A program made the translations under genes and the position numbers. Below the pieces are notes generated by a model. The model saw nothing but the letters and a program-made list of their open reading frames with translations. It searched no databases and was not told the DNA's origin. This document shows, in pieces, positions 22,340 through 57,617 of a stretch of 64,000 bases of DNA (positions within the stretch are counted from its first letter, which is position 1; every line of letters begins with the position of its first letter). Location of the stretch: contig NW_026516204.1 of the NCBI RefSeq assembly GCF_025602895.1, positions 992,001 through 1,056,000 on the forward strand, written 5' to 3'. This DNA is from Polychytrium aggregatum. Its lineage: Eukaryota > Chytridiomycota > Chytridiomycetes > Polychytriales.

Positions 22340-22373
22340 GCTTCGATTCGCGCATGATGTGAAGATTCAAGCC

Positions 22374-22653
22374 TCACATATTCACCGCGCACGGAATCGA
22401 AACAGGCCGCTCTGCTTTTGACGCCGATGCCACATATCTCTGCATCCTGAATACAGCCCATGTGCTCCGTTCAATATCGCCAAGTGCGCGGCACAGCCAG
22501 GAGCATATACCGAGCGCGCGGGTCGGCACCACTCGTGGCAATCGAGCAGTGGGATCCAAGAACACAATGCCAGAGACAAAGTGGTCATTACTGTCAGTCG
22601 CAGGCGACATCGGCGGGTGCAGTTGCAGTTGCAGTTGCAGGTCGGCAGTCGCT
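22374..22653 (+). repeat. ~280-bp inverted repeat, left arm
   Basis: This is the reverse complement of 29292-29572 with only a handful of differences over ~280 bases (about 97-98% by eye). Divergence begins abruptly on the outer side at TCACATAT and more gradually on the inner side after GGTCGGCAGTC. The arms point towards each other and enclose the hydrolase and reductase genes. An open frame of ~75 codons crosses both arms but matches nothing recognised. In the right-arm orientation GTTTCGATTCC resembles a Pol III B box; the surrounding bases do not fold as a tRNA. Confidence 0.93.
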
Positions 22654-22742
22654 CATCGATCTGTCAGCGATCCGTCAGTCTAATGTGGGGCGATGTGTTT
22701 CGAAACAAACAGGATTCACTCTATATTGTTCTTGGGTGAGCC

Positions 22743-29096: not shown

Positions 29097-29587
29097 TGTC
29101 CGATGCATGACGGCGATGTGGATTGGAGACTCTGGATGCTTCATAATCTTGATAATGTCTCAAGTCCCTCTCCTTTCCTCTTCCTCGCTTTCGCTTACCT
29201 TTCCTATTATGTATGGATGACCCAATCGCTCCTGTTTATCGTTTCCGGTTACTGGTTAACTGTATAAGCATGACGTGGGTGATACATCAACGAGTGACTG
29301 CCGACCTGCAACTGCAACTACAACTGCACCCGCCGATGTCGCCTGCGACTGACAGTAATGACCACTTTGTCTCTGGCATTGTGTTCTTGGATCCCACTGC
29401 TCGATTGCCACGAGTGGTGCCGACCCGCACGCTCGGTATATGCTCCTGGCTGTGCCGCGCACTTGGCGATATTGAACGGAGCACATGGGCTGTATTCAGG
29501 ATGCAGAGATATGTGGCATCGGCGTCAAAAGCAGAGCGGCCTGTTTCGATTCCGTGCGCGGTGTATATGTGAGCAGCAGTTCCAGCG
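29097..29587. other. Convergent intergenic region containing the right repeat arm
   Basis: Between the reductase and GH16 3' ends. Apart from the ~280-bp repeat arm nothing is recognised. Confidence 0.6.
29292..29572 (-). repeat. ~280-bp inverted repeat, right arm
   Basis: Reverse-complement partner of 22374-22653. Its outer end is TATGTGA at 29566-29572. It starts ~195 bases beyond the reductase stop codon and ends 16 bases before the GH16 stop codon, so it lies next to or within the GH16 3' UTR. Confidence 0.93.
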
Positions 29588-53509: not shown

Positions 53510-53641
53510 GATGGTGGCGGGTGGAGGAGAGTCTTGATGGAGCGAGGGCTGACGAGGGAAGAGCCTGGGCAGGCGAGCCAGAGGCGATCGCTGAATTGAA
53601 ATGCTGACCAAAACGGCTTGTGCCTTGCTTCCGCTGTACAC

Positions 53642-53647
53642 TTTATT
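53642..53647 (-). terminator. AATAAA polyadenylation signal at the outer edge of transposon copy 2
   Basis: On the minus strand AATAAA lies ~90 bases after the Fanzor stop codon and just beyond the A/T run of the inverted repeat. It could end the Fanzor transcript in host flank DNA. Use is inferred. Confidence 0.4.
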
Positions 53648-53664
53648 CAGAAAAAAACGGGACA
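53647..53664 (+). repeat. Left terminal inverted repeat of transposon copy 2
   Basis: Reads TTCAGAAAAAAACGGGACA starting at 53646-53647. It matches the right end in inverse orientation over AAAAACGGGACA, with further partial match outside. Confidence 0.75.
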
Positions 53665-53760
53665 ATATAGCCGTTTCCATGAACAGGTAGTATGTGCTGT
53701 GCTTGCGTCAAGCAAAGCCACAAGAAATAAAACAGATCACTTTGGCAGCCTCCGAGTGAA
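53650..53760 (-). ncRNA. Candidate guide-RNA (omega/fRNA) 3' scaffold at the Fanzor end
   Basis: TnpB and Fanzor guide RNAs arise from the element end next to the nuclease 3' end, with the guide copied from flanking DNA. Here two hairpins follow the Fanzor stop. One is a 6-bp stem with a 3-base loop at 53700-53714 (TGCTTG/CAAGCA). The other is a 6-bp stem with a 10-base loop at 53655-53676 (AAACGG/CCGTTT), overlapping the inverted-repeat core. A guide would then run from about 53650 downward into the BOL2 upstream region. Hairpins are seen in sequence; the RNA itself is inferred. Confidence 0.4.
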
Positions 53761-56106
53761 GACCGCCGGTCGCTCTCCGGTCTCCACAATCGACCTGCAC
53801 ACTGCGATCATGCGCGCCGCATTGACGTCGCGATTCCACACTGTCCGGCAGCTGGGATTCTTGCAGCTCCTGACAAAGTGGGAATTCGCAACACTAGGCG
53901 CATCGAGTCCTTCCAACCGAACCGGCTCCAGGCACTTGGAGCACACTTGCGAGGTGTTGAACTCGTTCGTCGAGGCCACCTTGACGCTTCCGTGAGGGTG
54001 ATTGGGACGGCGTCGGTGGTGCTCGAATTGCTCAAAGTACCGAGCAAACCGCTGCCTCCGAGGGCTGGATGCATAGCCCTTGCCTTGTCGCCATGACGCA
54101 TTGCCAAAGGCGATCACCACATCGGTCCGTATCGGGACGTGCTTCAGGACGGCCTTGCACATCCTGTCGACGGCCACTTGGCGCCTCTTGTGACCCGTGA
54201 ATCGATGGTGGCGAGTCTTCTTGCCAAGGTGGAAGTCGAGCTGCACTCGCAGCTCCGGTCGCAGGACATGGGTGAGATGGACCTTGAAGGCCTCCGAGGA
54301 CGACACCTTGGGCGAGGGGGTGGTTGACATCCAGGTCTCGATGCTGAGTCGATACTTCATGGTGTTGTGCCACCTGGTGTTGGACGTATGGCCACACATG
54401 TGCTGGTAGTGGCCATTGGAGAACGAGACCACCTCGTCTTGGTGGCCCGGTGCTTGGATGACCGCCGTGAAGACGGAGCCGACTCCAGGATCGATGCCAA
54501 TCCAAGTGGTGCGATCGGGGTCTGGGTCGCCAATGTGCTCCTGGATGCGCTGCTCGGCAGTCGGAGGAGGCTCGATGGTCTCGGTGTGATCGGTTCGAGG
54601 CACAAACTTGACGAGACCGATGGTGCATCCAATGCCATCGGTGCTGATCTCGTAGTTGAACAGCTTCTTGTCCCTGACCCGCTCTTGGAAGAGGGAACTA
54701 CGCAGCTTGAAGCAACTGCGCCAGAGACGATCCTGGTTGTTGATGCCGTCCTCGCCTTCTTCCTTGAGCATGTCCCGGGTGAGTCCAAGGCGCTTCTTTG
54801 GACCCAGGAGTTGCCAAAGAGTGACCGTGTCAATCTTGACATACTTGGCCTTGGCTGTGCACAGAGGGACCATCGTGCACACGGCCGGAGGAGTGTCGAG
54901 AGCGAGCTGCTTGAGGCACCACTTGAGTCTGGATGCCAGCTTGTTGATCTTGGACTTGGTGGTGCCGAGCTCAGACTTGGCCGTGGTGAACCTCTTGTCG
55001 TCGGAGGGAATGCCTCGAGCAGTGAGGCTGTCCAGCTTGGCCTGGCGCTGCAGCTCGGTGACTCGGAGGGCGGGCATGTCACAGTCGATCCACTTGTGGA
55101 CATTGTCGACCATCTTGTCTCGGGCGAGGATTCCCACATGGTGTGAGAGGCGATGGAGGGCCCGGAAGCGGTCCTGGTCGTTGCTGTACCGAAACTCGTC
55201 CAGGACGTGGCCAAAGTCTGGATAGAGGAACTCGAGATCGGCCTTGGGTGGAGTCTGCCCTGGTTTCTCGAAGAGCTCGAGACAGGCCTCGATGGCTTCG
55301 TGCTTGTGCTTGTTGGCTGGGAAGACGGCAGCGCAGAAGCGGCGAAGGAGTCGCCAGTAGGCCAGGTCGAGGTGGGTGGTGCAGTTGGTGGCATAGGCAT
55401 TGACAGCCAGTGTGAGAAGCTGACTGTGAGCACCATCAGGCAGACGAGGGGCCGGAGGCAGGTCTGCGTGCCGAGTGGTCTGGTAGTCGCGAAAGGAAGC
55501 GACCAGATGCTCGTTGTATTTCTTGGTGTCCCTGGCCGTCGAGAGGGCACCGTCCTGGACGATCTTGAAGCATTGGCGGATGAAAGCAGGGGTGGCCCTG
55601 GAGATGACAGGGACGGGAAGATCCTGCTCGATGCACCGGAGGATGTGCAGGTTGAGCAGCCTGGATGCCTCGAACTGGATCTGGGTCATGGTCTCGACGG
55701 TGGCCTGGATCTTGTCGCGGAGAGCGGGATTGAGACAACAGCCATCCATCGTCTGCTTGAAGCAGCTGAACTGAGGGGCGGATGACCTTCCATCCACGAG
55801 TGGGACGACGGAGCTCTTGAGGGGCCGGTATTTGGGACACTTGTTGGTGTTGCAGCGTTCGTGATCGGTGCCATCGCACTTGGGACATCGCTTGCCGGTA
55901 CTCGAGGAAGTAGATGGACCAGGCTCGGTGGGATCGACATCCATTGGATCTGCAGAAGCAGTGGTGGTGAGCGACGGAGCAACAGAGAAACAAGCATGCG
56001 TGAGATCAGAATACGAACCAGAGACAGGCTCCGACTGTGACTTGGCTTTCTTGGGCCTGGGTGGCCGAGGCTGGCCATCACCGGTACCCTTGCGCTTCAG
56101 AGGCAT
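53737..56106 (-). CDS. Fanzor, eukaryotic TnpB-like RNA-guided DNA nuclease (intact)
   Basis: Single-exon gene of 789 residues from the ATG at 56106. Fanzors cut DNA using a guide RNA encoded at the transposon end. In order: a basic N-terminus like a nuclear signal (KRK, PRPKKAK); a zinc-knuckle-like CPKC...H..C....C at 74-90; a long helical recognition region; RuvC-I IGIDPGVGS with Asp539; a VVIAFGNASW strand (663-672) where canonical TnpB would have its RuvC-II Glu; the alternative Glu of Fanzors in STNEFNTSQ (Glu715); a zinc ribbon with Cys722, 725, 748 and 753; and RuvC-III WNRDVNAARMI with Asp760. All expected catalytic positions are present. A TATA box lies ~130 bases upstream. It stays open while the neighbouring transposase is broken. 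Confidence 0.96.
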   Translation of the reverse strand: MPLKRKGTGDGQPRPPRPKKAKSQSEPVSGSYSDLTHACFSVAPSLTTTASADPMDVDPTEPGPSTSSSTGKRCPKCDGTDHERCNTNKCPKYRPLKSSVVPLVDGRSSAPQFSCFKQTMDGCCLNPALRDKIQATVETMTQIQFEASRLLNLHILRCIEQDLPVPVISRATPAFIRQCFKIVQDGALSTARDTKKYNEHLVASFRDYQTTRHADLPPAPRLPDGAHSQLLTLAVNAYATNCTTHLDLAYWRLLRRFCAAVFPANKHKHEAIEACLELFEKPGQTPPKADLEFLYPDFGHVLDEFRYSNDQDRFRALHRLSHHVGILARDKMVDNVHKWIDCDMPALRVTELQRQAKLDSLTARGIPSDDKRFTTAKSELGTTKSKINKLASRLKWCLKQLALDTPPAVCTMVPLCTAKAKYVKIDTVTLWQLLGPKKRLGLTRDMLKEEGEDGINNQDRLWRSCFKLRSSLFQERVRDKKLFNYEISTDGIGCTIGLVKFVPRTDHTETIEPPPTAEQRIQEHIGDPDPDRTTWIGIDPGVGSVFTAVIQAPGHQDEVVSFSNGHYQHMCGHTSNTRWHNTMKYRLSIETWMSTTPSPKVSSSEAFKVHLTHVLRPELRVQLDFHLGKKTRHHRFTGHKRRQVAVDRMCKAVLKHVPIRTDVVIAFGNASWRQGKGYASSPRRQRFARYFEQFEHHRRRPNHPHGSVKVASTNEFNTSQVCSKCLEPVRLEGLDAPSVANSHFVRSCKNPSCRTVWNRDVNAARMIAVCRSIVETGERPAVFTRRLPK

Positions 56107-56233
56107 GGGGGCAGAGAATGCTGGGTGCCTGCCAGTGGTACTGGTCAGAACAGAGACTTTTTTTATCGTACAATGGCGCGATGATCAGATCAAGGCGAGA
56201 TGAGGGAAGAAAGTAGCAGGACGAAGGAGCGGC

Positions 56234-56240
56234 ATTTATA
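56234..56240 (-). promoter_or_regulatory. TATA box upstream of Fanzor, copy 2
   Basis: TATAAAT on the minus strand ~130 bases before the Fanzor ATG, inside the transposon and conserved in copy 1. It suggests Fanzor has its own promoter, separate from the transposase. Confidence 0.45.
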
Positions 56241-56356
56241 CCCGAGAGCAGGAGCCCGTCTTTGCGGGCTGGTTGGGGAAGTGACCTGTTCAAAAATCGC
56301 CGAGAGGTTCAAGCCAGGGATGTGAGCGTGAGAATGGCGGCTTGATTGGAGGGAAC

Positions 56357-57287
56357 TCAACCCCAGAAGCGCATCGCTCGCTCAATCAGCCGTGGGAAGA
56401 CATCTGGAAGCACCCTCCGAACGGCAGACTCGAACAATGTGACCATCCCGATCTTGAACCCCTCGGACGCATTCAGCGCTGCCACCTTCCTGTACTGGTG
56501 CTTCACAATCCCAAAGAAGTTCTCGATGGGATTGAAGTCGAGTGAGGCAGGTGGGGTGAAGATCACTGACCATCCTCGGCGCTCGATGCAGTCCAGGACA
56601 GCCATTGTCTTGTGCATGCTGACATTGTCCATCACAACCACAGAGTCGTCTGGGAAGCTCGCTCGCTCAAAGAACTCGACCATCGAGTGTGTCTTGAATG
56701 ATGTGGGGATGTACATGCGATGCAGCACACCAGTGGTTGATTGCAAATGCAGCCGAGACAGACTTGTGTTTCATGTGATTGCGCTGGCGAAGCGGAGCAC
56801 CCTTCGGTGAGTATCCGTAAAGAGGGAAAATGGATCTCCTGATCCCTGTCTCGTCGACAAAAACGAATCGTCGTGGGTCGATGGAGCGGGCCTGGTCCCT
56901 GAACTGTGCCACTCGCTCATCCAGTCGCTTGGACTTGTAGAGGTGTGTTGCCCTCTTGTGTGAGAGACCTGCTCGGTGGATGGAAGTGTGGCAGAGTGAG
57001 AGTGATACTTTCCTCTGGAGGATGGACTCGAGCTTGCACCGCAGCACAGGACCAGTCTGGAACGGGTCCTGTTCAATCAGGGTGCGAATGACTGGACATG
57101 CCTGCTCGAAGAAAGTGGATCTGCGAGCTGGGACCCGGGATGGGTCATCCAGCTTGCATCCTCGGTGCCATCGATGGATGGTGCTCTCGGATACACTGAA
57201 TATGGAGGCGACCTTACGCAGGCTATGGATGAGGGCGTAGCATCGCAATGCGGCGGTGCGAAAGTCGGATGTGTGGCGAATGGTCAT
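56357..57287 (-). pseudogene. Tc1/mariner (IS630-like) DDE transposase, copy 2, frameshifted
   Basis: Same protein as at 1502-2434. From the ATG at 57287 the frame is intact through the HTH (SVSESTIHRW), the first catalytic Asp (VDETG) and on to about residue 190. A 2-base deletion relative to copy 1 near 56732-56733 (CACCAGTGG versus CACCAGAGTGG) then shifts the frame. The second Asp (MDNVSMHK) and Glu (NPIENFFG) continue in another frame down to 56357. At the position of the copy 1 nonsense codon, copy 2 still has Arg. Neither copy in the window can make a full transposase, so mobility would need a source elsewhere in the genome. Confidence 0.93.
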
Positions 57288-57345
57288 GGCCAGCGCGCGA
57301 TAACATTGGGTAACAAAATATTCGATCAATGGTCAAAAACCTGGG

Positions 57346-57364
57346 TGTCCCGTTTTTATTGGAT
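57346..57364 (-). repeat. Right terminal inverted repeat of transposon copy 2
   Basis: Read inward on the minus strand: TAAAAACGGGACACCCAGG. The outer six bases (TTGGAT on the plus strand) are also shared with copy 1. Confidence 0.75.
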
Positions 57365-57617
57365 TGCCTGTAAGCGCTCCGAAACCGACTGCACACCGAC
57401 CTCTCTGCCGGTATGAACTCATGGCACAAATGACAGCTGTAAGTCGAGCCGCCAGCCCAGATCCCGCAGGAAACTCTTGCACCAGCGGCTCTGGATATCA
57501 AGGTTGTTCCTGATGGGCGATGAGGGACCTGCACGCAGCATCTCCAGACACACTCGGCGACCACATGTGTATTAGGGATCAAGAAACAAAGAATGGCCGC
57601 CGGGGACTCATCGGGCA

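Follow-up and report, generated by a model that had tools for sequence, protein, structure and literature searches.

What use might a cut-and-paste DNA transposon have for an RNA-guided nuclease encoded between its own ends? This question is raised by a stretch of 64,000 nucleotides of the Polychytrium aggregatum genome (contig NW_026516204.1, positions 992,001 to 1,056,000; hereafter, the window), which carries on its minus strand a composite Tc1/mariner-type element with a transposase gene and a gene for a Fanzor nuclease. Comparing insertion sites of this family across the genome, we found two marks, namely, a conserved T ahead of the left target-site TA, and left tips that, at some sites, copy the flank on the opposite side of the element (left-tip scars). 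We slightly favor the explanation that the family is a Tc1/mariner lineage with Fanzor as cargo, in which RNA-guided Fanzor cuts empty sites and repair copies the element in. That the scars and the one-sided TTA are footprints of such homing on behalf of a cut-and-paste transposon, with short derivatives lacking the nuclease gene (ghosts) copied back too, we consider an even proposition. The features of the window copy, including its terminal inverted repeats (TIRs) and the predicted target-adjacent motif (TAM), are as follows (here and below, statements on published systems refer to parts of the cited papers).

53639..57370, minus strand: composite Tc1/mariner-type element, 3732 bp, with ends shared by the family (40 long copies compared)
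57371..57373, minus strand: left target-site TA plus the conserved T, together 5'-TTA, the predicted Fanzor TAM (insertion-site counts)
57342..57370, minus strand: left TIR (CAGGCAATCCAATAAAAACGGGACA...; 436 genome-wide pattern matches)
56357..57287, minus strand: transposase gene, frameshifted in this copy; copies with an open frame encode 310 aa (DD34E; PF13358)
53737..56106, minus strand: Fanzor nuclease, 789 aa, uninterrupted (open reading frame; PF07282, E = 2e-8; active-site residues)
53637..53726, minus strand: predicted omega-RNA scaffold, the last 90 nt, two hairpins with TA paired in the outer stem (folding)
53639..53665, minus strand: right TIR, predicted to form the 3' portion of the guide-RNA scaffold as well (261 genome-wide pattern matches)
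53637..53638, minus strand: right target-site TA (sequence read)
53617..53636, minus strand: predicted guide of the window copy, the first 20 nt of the right flank (analogy with published Fanzor1 RNAs; PMC10432273, PMC10711439)
1..2512, minus strand: copy 1 (whole locus, L009), truncated by the window edge, its left tip swapped for 10 nt of the opposite flank

Read from its left end (57370) to its right end (53639), the window copy consists of TTA, the left TIR, the transposase gene, the Fanzor gene, about 100 nt closing with the right TIR, and TA. Compared by eye, the TIRs are imperfect and about 26 bp long. An earlier note on this DNA, made from the window alone, had placed the ends at 53645 and 57365; clear ends do exist, but the element is slightly wider (53639-57370), with TA at 53637-53638 and 57371-57372. 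The two near-identical copies some 54 kb apart that the note had described are there as well (spacing 54.85 kb, 96.0% identity between copy 1 and the window copy). The genome-wide matches of the end patterns were counted in the 64.7 Mb assembly (418 contigs) at up to 3 mismatches, with 0 matches for the reversed control of either end, and they tally same-site copies on two contigs separately, so that distinct insertions are fewer. Among the perfect ends listed, pairing over the first 100 places of each end list gave 59 copies: 21 of 3725 bp or more, 25 of 3.1-3.7 kb, 4 of 1110 bp, and 9 of under 400 bp. The long-copy sample comprised 40 copies with 1-kb flanks, i.e., copy 1 and matches of the window element; it is biased toward full length and toward resemblance to the window copy, and includes seven same-site pairs. 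Ten short derivatives (279-1110 bp), found by both end patterns, were fetched in addition. The long copies lie 1.9-3.3% from their majority sequence, which fits recent activity of the family.

We compared 71 unique insertion sites, derived from 85 site rows after 14 rows had been merged as repeats of the same site. TA is present on each side of the element at most of these sites (exceptions include L017, L035, and L063), and TTA precedes the left tip at 68 of the 71. The exceptions are ATA at L017 and L037 and TTG at L063, with L009 read at its shifted TTA; a count by column likewise yields 68, scoring L009 as A and L063 as T. Among exact left ends genome-wide, with same-site copies unmerged, TTA is found in 204 of 214, and ATA, CTA, or GTA in 10. 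The first base to the right of the element shows no comparable bias (14 T, 23 C, 11 A, and 22 G at 70 sites; L099/100 ends with its contig and has no right flank). We predict TTA to be the Fanzor TAM, because in elements of Spizellomyces punctatus the equivalent position holds a conserved CA, and CATA is required by the nuclease (PMC10432273).

The second mark concerns the first bases of the element, which after TTA are usually CA or CG. At six of the 71 sites, which had not been selected for this feature, the two-base tip is altered, and all six altered tips equal the start of the right flank. The match extends over 10 nt in copy 1 (L009), 7 nt in L020, 5 nt in L129/130, 4 nt in L058, and 3 nt in each of L054 and L056. 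A pattern search of the genome for left tips other than C listed 17 ends, eight of which were read, these six included; of the two further tips, C179 matches its flank over 7 nt. The altered tip thus copies the opposite flank at seven of the eight sites read, usually beside microhomology, and none of 20000 permutations reached the total agreement of 39 nt over the eight sites (maximum 23). At the six scarred sites that remain when L009 and C400 (the eighth site) are left out, the flank resembles the left end past the replaced bases as well (p = 8e-5). Flanks of the form NNGGC are scarred in 3 of 5 cases versus 3 of 67 for all others (p = 0.003).

A scar of this kind needs a left DNA end that still carries flank past TTA, i.e., a broken empty site, annealed to the left end of the element, and it also needs a template giving an intact right junction. 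Such scars would result if Fanzor cut beyond TTA and the break were repaired from the occupied allele; SpuFz1, the S. punctatus nuclease, cuts downstream of its TAM, after bases 16-17 and 20-21 (PMC10432273). The proposed sequence of events would begin with the transposase inserting elements at TA sites. Fanzor would bind an RNA made of the last ~90 nt of the element and the first ~15-20 nt of its flank, and the complex would cut the unoccupied version of the same site, where TTA is followed directly by right-flank sequence. Repair off the occupied allele or sister would then copy the element in. Trimming of the broken left end to TTA would be the normal course and would result in an exact copy; where the flank resembles the left end of the element, an untrimmed tail may anneal there, and its first bases would replace the tip, leaving a scar. 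Short ghosts that retain only the ends and the scaffold may borrow both proteins in trans.

The same marks could arise from the transposase alone, if it prefers T before the left TA and at times integrates an end short of one or two tip bases with a longer target duplication, Fanzor being a passenger. We regard this explanation as possible but doubtful. In six of the seven scars, as many bases are gained as are lost, which a variable transposase stagger could produce likewise, and Fanzor-free ghost derivatives show the same TTA, as expected if the transposase sets it. The TTA bias is one-sided, however, whereas target capture by Tc1/mariner transposases is roughly symmetric. The resemblance of the bases past the replaced tip to the left end is not predicted by action of the transposase alone, and L009 gains ~10 nt while losing ~5-7, so that a variable stagger explains neither the 10-nt case nor the microhomology.

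Several observations weigh against guided cutting and repair, in addition to the equality of lost and gained bases. The TTA bias could be a transposase preference. The altered tip of C400 does not match its flank, and two NNGGC flanks (L077/078 and L079/080) have no scar. The tips of L054, L056, and L058 lie as little as one C-to-T change from the usual tip and are individually weak. Unoccupied alleles were found at 0 of 16 sites (joined flanks gave no 120-bp match; among the 40 of 78 candidates that were scored, the listed matches were half sites no longer than 70 bp), and neither cutting of a live empty site nor the duplication of TA is therefore directly visible. A single-change origin of the scars was considered separately and rejected: it fits L056, L058, possibly L054, and the tip of C400, and fails for the longer scars. 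No report of such scars was found among the listed titles and abstract starts of the Fanzor and transposon literature, where subscription journals were thinly covered; the left-tip scars look new, whereas Fanzor1 in mariner elements is already known.

Cutting and repair as proposed would depend on a guide RNA, and we predict that the 3' end of the element is its scaffold, of the OMEGA (obligate mobile element-guided activity) type. The last 90 nt fold as two hairpins, the second of which pairs the right TIR with an inner complement and closes on TA; similar pairing of the right TIR and TA has been described for Fanzor1 RNAs (PMC10711439). The predicted scaffold of ~90 nt ends at AAAGTGTA, and about 14-20 nt of flank beyond it would be the guide. 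The majority sequence had a folding z of -2.5 over 90 nt and of -1.7 over 103 nt, and copy L020 one of -2.15. In an alignment of 19 RNA sequences, ten of them divergent derivatives with a recognizable right end, 86.9% of cells are paired, versus 21-53% (maximum 53.1%) with slid partners. Among shuffle measures, the number of cells paired was equaled in 4 of 500 shuffles, and cells changed on both sides numbered 12 versus 5.1 (6 of 500 shuffles). All ten young deletion derivatives (279-1110 bp), with several different left breakpoints, keep the final 160 nt or more; by analogy, they are the counterpart of the S. punctatus ghost elements (PMC10432273).

Other parts of this evidence are less favorable to the predicted RNA. 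Seven divergent derivatives folded singly had z values from -1.74 to +1.72, several divergent copies thus folding no better than shuffled sequence. Eleven of 21 divergent copies, with no recognizable right end in the stretch compared, were dropped from the alignment, as was L033. Three of the five shuffle measures gave no support, namely, the count of pairs with changes in both partners (93 of 500), the score for covariation (179 of 500), and further pair types (447 of 500). The outermost 29 nt of the young derivatives were a search condition, and only the inner part of the retained end is informative.

The earlier note had recognized a Fanzor and a Tc1/mariner transposase within one element, and the proteins bear this out, together with the mariner-type ends and TA. 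The transposase, in copies where its frame is open, has 310 aa with D145, D221, and, after 34 residues, E256, i.e., DD34E, and matches PF13358 at E = 1.4e-20 in a profile search. A DD34D/E spacing defines the Tc1/mariner (IS630) superfamily, and the DDE transposase at this spacing, the TIRs, and the flanking TA all place the element there. The 789-residue Fanzor frame (window 53737-56106, minus strand) runs without a stop, and Asp539, Glu715, Asp760, and the zinc cysteines 722, 725, 748, and 753 are all present, in line with the acidic residues and the zinc ribbon that the note had named. Published Fanzor signatures include a RuvC DPG motif, a rearranged Glu that precedes the first CxxC by six residues, a zinc finger, and a final Asp 4-8 residues past it, the DPG motif and the relocated Glu separating Fanzors from TnpBs (PMC10711439). 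The window protein shows DPG539, Glu715 six residues ahead of the first CxxC, C722/C725, C748/C753, and D760. It departs from the published search string in the gap from DPG to Glu (173 residues versus 120-160), in the gap between cysteine pairs (22 residues versus 12-18), and in the second cysteine pair, which is CX4C rather than CxxC. PF07282 matches above its cut-off at E = 2e-8 and the guided_TnpB model NF040570 below its own cut-off at E = 4.4e-5, both matches being confined to the C-terminal zinc-ribbon region. Fanzor1, as distinct from Fanzor2, is a clade carried by non-IS607 transposons; carriage by a DDE transposon fits Fanzor1, although Fanzor2* exceptions exist (PMC10711439). Among solved structures, the whole Fanzor had no sequence match at E up to 0.1, and its C-terminal 308 residues and the transposase had chance-level matches only (E 0.61 and 0.28, respectively). 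In tblastn searches of collections that held no eukaryotes, no relatives of the protein were found in viral contigs or phages. As a separate observation, PF07282 was over its cut-off in all 150 scored of 663 genome candidates, with frames of 101-977 codons; some of these matches have scores and frames unlike those of the window element's family, and the genome probably contains several further Fanzor families.

The earlier note had read the intact nuclease beside a broken transposase as a property of the element. The transposase of the window copy is indeed broken (stop after 206 codons, with continuation in another frame), and so is that of copy 1 (stop after 139 codons), but a dead transposase is not a family trait: the 310-aa frame is kept in 20 of the 40 long copies. 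Frames vary among these copies, with both open in 16, Fanzor only in 17, the transposase only in 4, and neither in 3. The lesions seem recurrent, as the first transposase frame of L041 ends in the same residues as that of the window copy, and the first transposase frame of L033 ends after 139 codons, like that of copy 1. In the same-site counterpart of the window copy, on contig C50, the 310-codon transposase frame is open; this counterpart shares roughly the first 340 bases with the window copy and then diverges.

Seven pairs of copies each occupy one insertion site on two contigs, and these pairs bear on the origin of the frame breaks. The flanks within a pair are 0-0.2% apart, except for a single gap of 72 bases and a single left flank whose structure departs after ~490 bp. 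The elements of six pairs are nevertheless 1.1-3.5% apart (e.g., L011/L013, L015/L031, and L037/L042), and at 75-90% of the differing sites in these pairs both states are seen in other copies. Linkage among 33 copies, one per site, is at chance level past about 20-50 bp. Short same-site pairs agree over 333 nt (L059/L061 and L058/L062 are identical, and L064/L072 has one mismatch). Differences between copies, frame breaks included, were probably for the most part made in assembly, by mixing reads of near-identical copies, and this is the likely cause of the same-site divergence. Against this stand the seventh pair, L026/L027, which differs at 1 site of 3738, and the extension of differences beyond the element interior; moreover, a high-copy family undergoing ectopic gene conversion in nature would present a similar picture, and such conversion is the alternative. 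Either way, the single frameshift of the window copy carries no argument about selection. Classes of variants and flank junctions are safer evidence than the frames of single copies, because junctions hold unique flank and short same-site pairs agree. We also considered, and rejected as unproven, Fanzor-driven conversion as the source of the same-site divergence, given the decay of linkage within 20-50 bp; assembly mixing explains the divergence equally well. Copy-specific claims on the transposase frameshift were rejected on the same ground.

Across copies, the Fanzor frame is full in 33 of 40 and the transposase frame in 20 of 40 (sign test p = 0.007). The count comes from the long-copy sample, chosen by resemblance to the window copy and with both members of seven same-site pairs, in an assembly whose repeat copies look mosaic. 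The excess favors the view of the earlier note that the transposase is dead or dying while the nuclease is retained by selection of its own; also in line with that view, 25 of the 59 copies paired among the listed ends are shorter than full length, and the gaps of the shortened copies L041-L048 are located in the transposase gene. Nonetheless, we think it very unlikely. The transposase frame is full in half of the fetched copies and open in the copy on C50 at the window element's own site, and Fanzor itself is often broken or missing: among 80 listed rows matching profile positions 17-60, 42 frames reach at least 750 codons, 13 have the 135/136 codons typical of the 1110-bp derivative, and the remaining 25 are short in other ways. 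The comparison of nonsynonymous and synonymous rates proposed in the note, run on polymorphism (pN/pS) in the 33 copies after dropping seven same-site partners, gave almost equal values for all variants (Fanzor 0.37, transposase 0.40). Split by frequency, singletons gave 0.49 for Fanzor against 0.57 for the transposase, and variants found in 2-3 copies gave 0.22 against 0.32; variants found in at least four copies lean in the opposite direction (0.36 against 0.20). Constraint is seen on the two genes alike, and on Fanzor it is not clearly stronger. The outcome named in the note as contrary to its view, purifying selection on Fanzor no stronger than on the transposase, is in part what we see; what stands is that Fanzor frames are open more often. 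Nucleotide diversity is 0.028 in the 100-nt right end, 0.040 in the intergenic stretch, and 0.030 in the transposase gene.

Elements of similar composition have been described before. PGv-1 and PUl-1 are Tc1/mariner elements bearing Fanzor1 (Bao and Jurka 2013, PMC3627910), and, as here, transposase and Fanzor1 share one element with TIRs and TA duplications; PUl-4 is a Fanzor-only relative with mariner TIRs. The present family differs in having, in one genome, hundreds of ends, full-length, transposase-deleted, 1110-bp, and miniature forms, and insertion-site scars; the description of PGv-1 and PUl-1, in the part cited, gives no TAM, guide RNA, or scars. SPu-1/SpuFz1 of S. punctatus resembles it as a Fanzor element with inverted repeats, a guide RNA ending at the right one, conserved bases just beyond the left end (CA; TAM CATA), and many ghosts without the nuclease gene (PMC10432273), as well as in its TA duplications (PMC3627910). 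No transposase was found inside the inverted repeats of SPu-1, whereas here transposase and Fanzor share ends, and the TAM predicted here is TTA versus CATA for SpuFz1 (PMC10432273). The right-end element RNA of the Spodoptera frugiperda ascovirus 1a Fanzor1 likewise has the TIR and the target-site duplication in its predicted scaffold and the guide just past it (PMC10711439), but the transposon type and host are different, and the RNA was sequenced there and is predicted here. The proposed logic, in which a nuclease cuts the empty site and recombination restores the element, is that of TnpB in IS200/IS605, where the partner is the peel-and-paste TnpA rather than a DDE cut-and-paste transposase in a eukaryote (PMC10432273). 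KolobokP, too, is a eukaryotic composite-like DNA transposon that combines a DDD/E transposase with a homing-type endonuclease, of the His-Me finger kind instead of Fanzor (PMC9587614).

Ghosts and the RNA logic of Fanzor have been known since 2023 (PMC10432273, PMC10711439), and Saito et al. 2023 called the biological role of Fanzor unknown (PMC10432273). If the homing reading is true, the present sites would be natural evidence for such a role. One family here unites transposase, nuclease, predicted guide RNA, ghosts, and hundreds of ends, making the cut-and-copy idea directly testable, and it supplies specific predictions, TTA as the TAM and a scaffold, for a Fanzor that has no sequence match to the solved structures searched.

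Some further observations concern the targets themselves. At 10 of 70 unique sites, positions +1 to +3 of the right flank read CAG or TAG (expected ~2, p = 6e-5), so that targets tend to resemble the left end of the element, and some flanks look like TIRs of related elements. The outward TIR-like motif AAACGGGACAC, at up to 2 mismatches, occurs within 40 bp of the junction in 5 of 43 unique right flanks (L018, L023, L029, L048, and L053), in 0 of 43 at 40-80 bp, and in 0 of 33 in each farther bin; on the left side, it lies within 40 bp in 2 of 43, at 40-80 bp in 1 of 43, and farther out in 0 of 33. Some copies directly adjoin ends of older related elements. The right flank of L097/L098 resembles the first 14 nt of the left end joined to the last bases of the right end, as from an aborted copy. 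At the L040 site, a full element (C375:1096317-1100040) and a derivative of ~1110 bp (C93:35624-36734) apparently occupy the same insertion site, the latter judged by flank matches and coordinates only. Elsewhere in the window, positions 22373-22666 and 29280-29573 form a 294-nt inverted repeat, 97% complementary, with its arms 6.6 kb apart.

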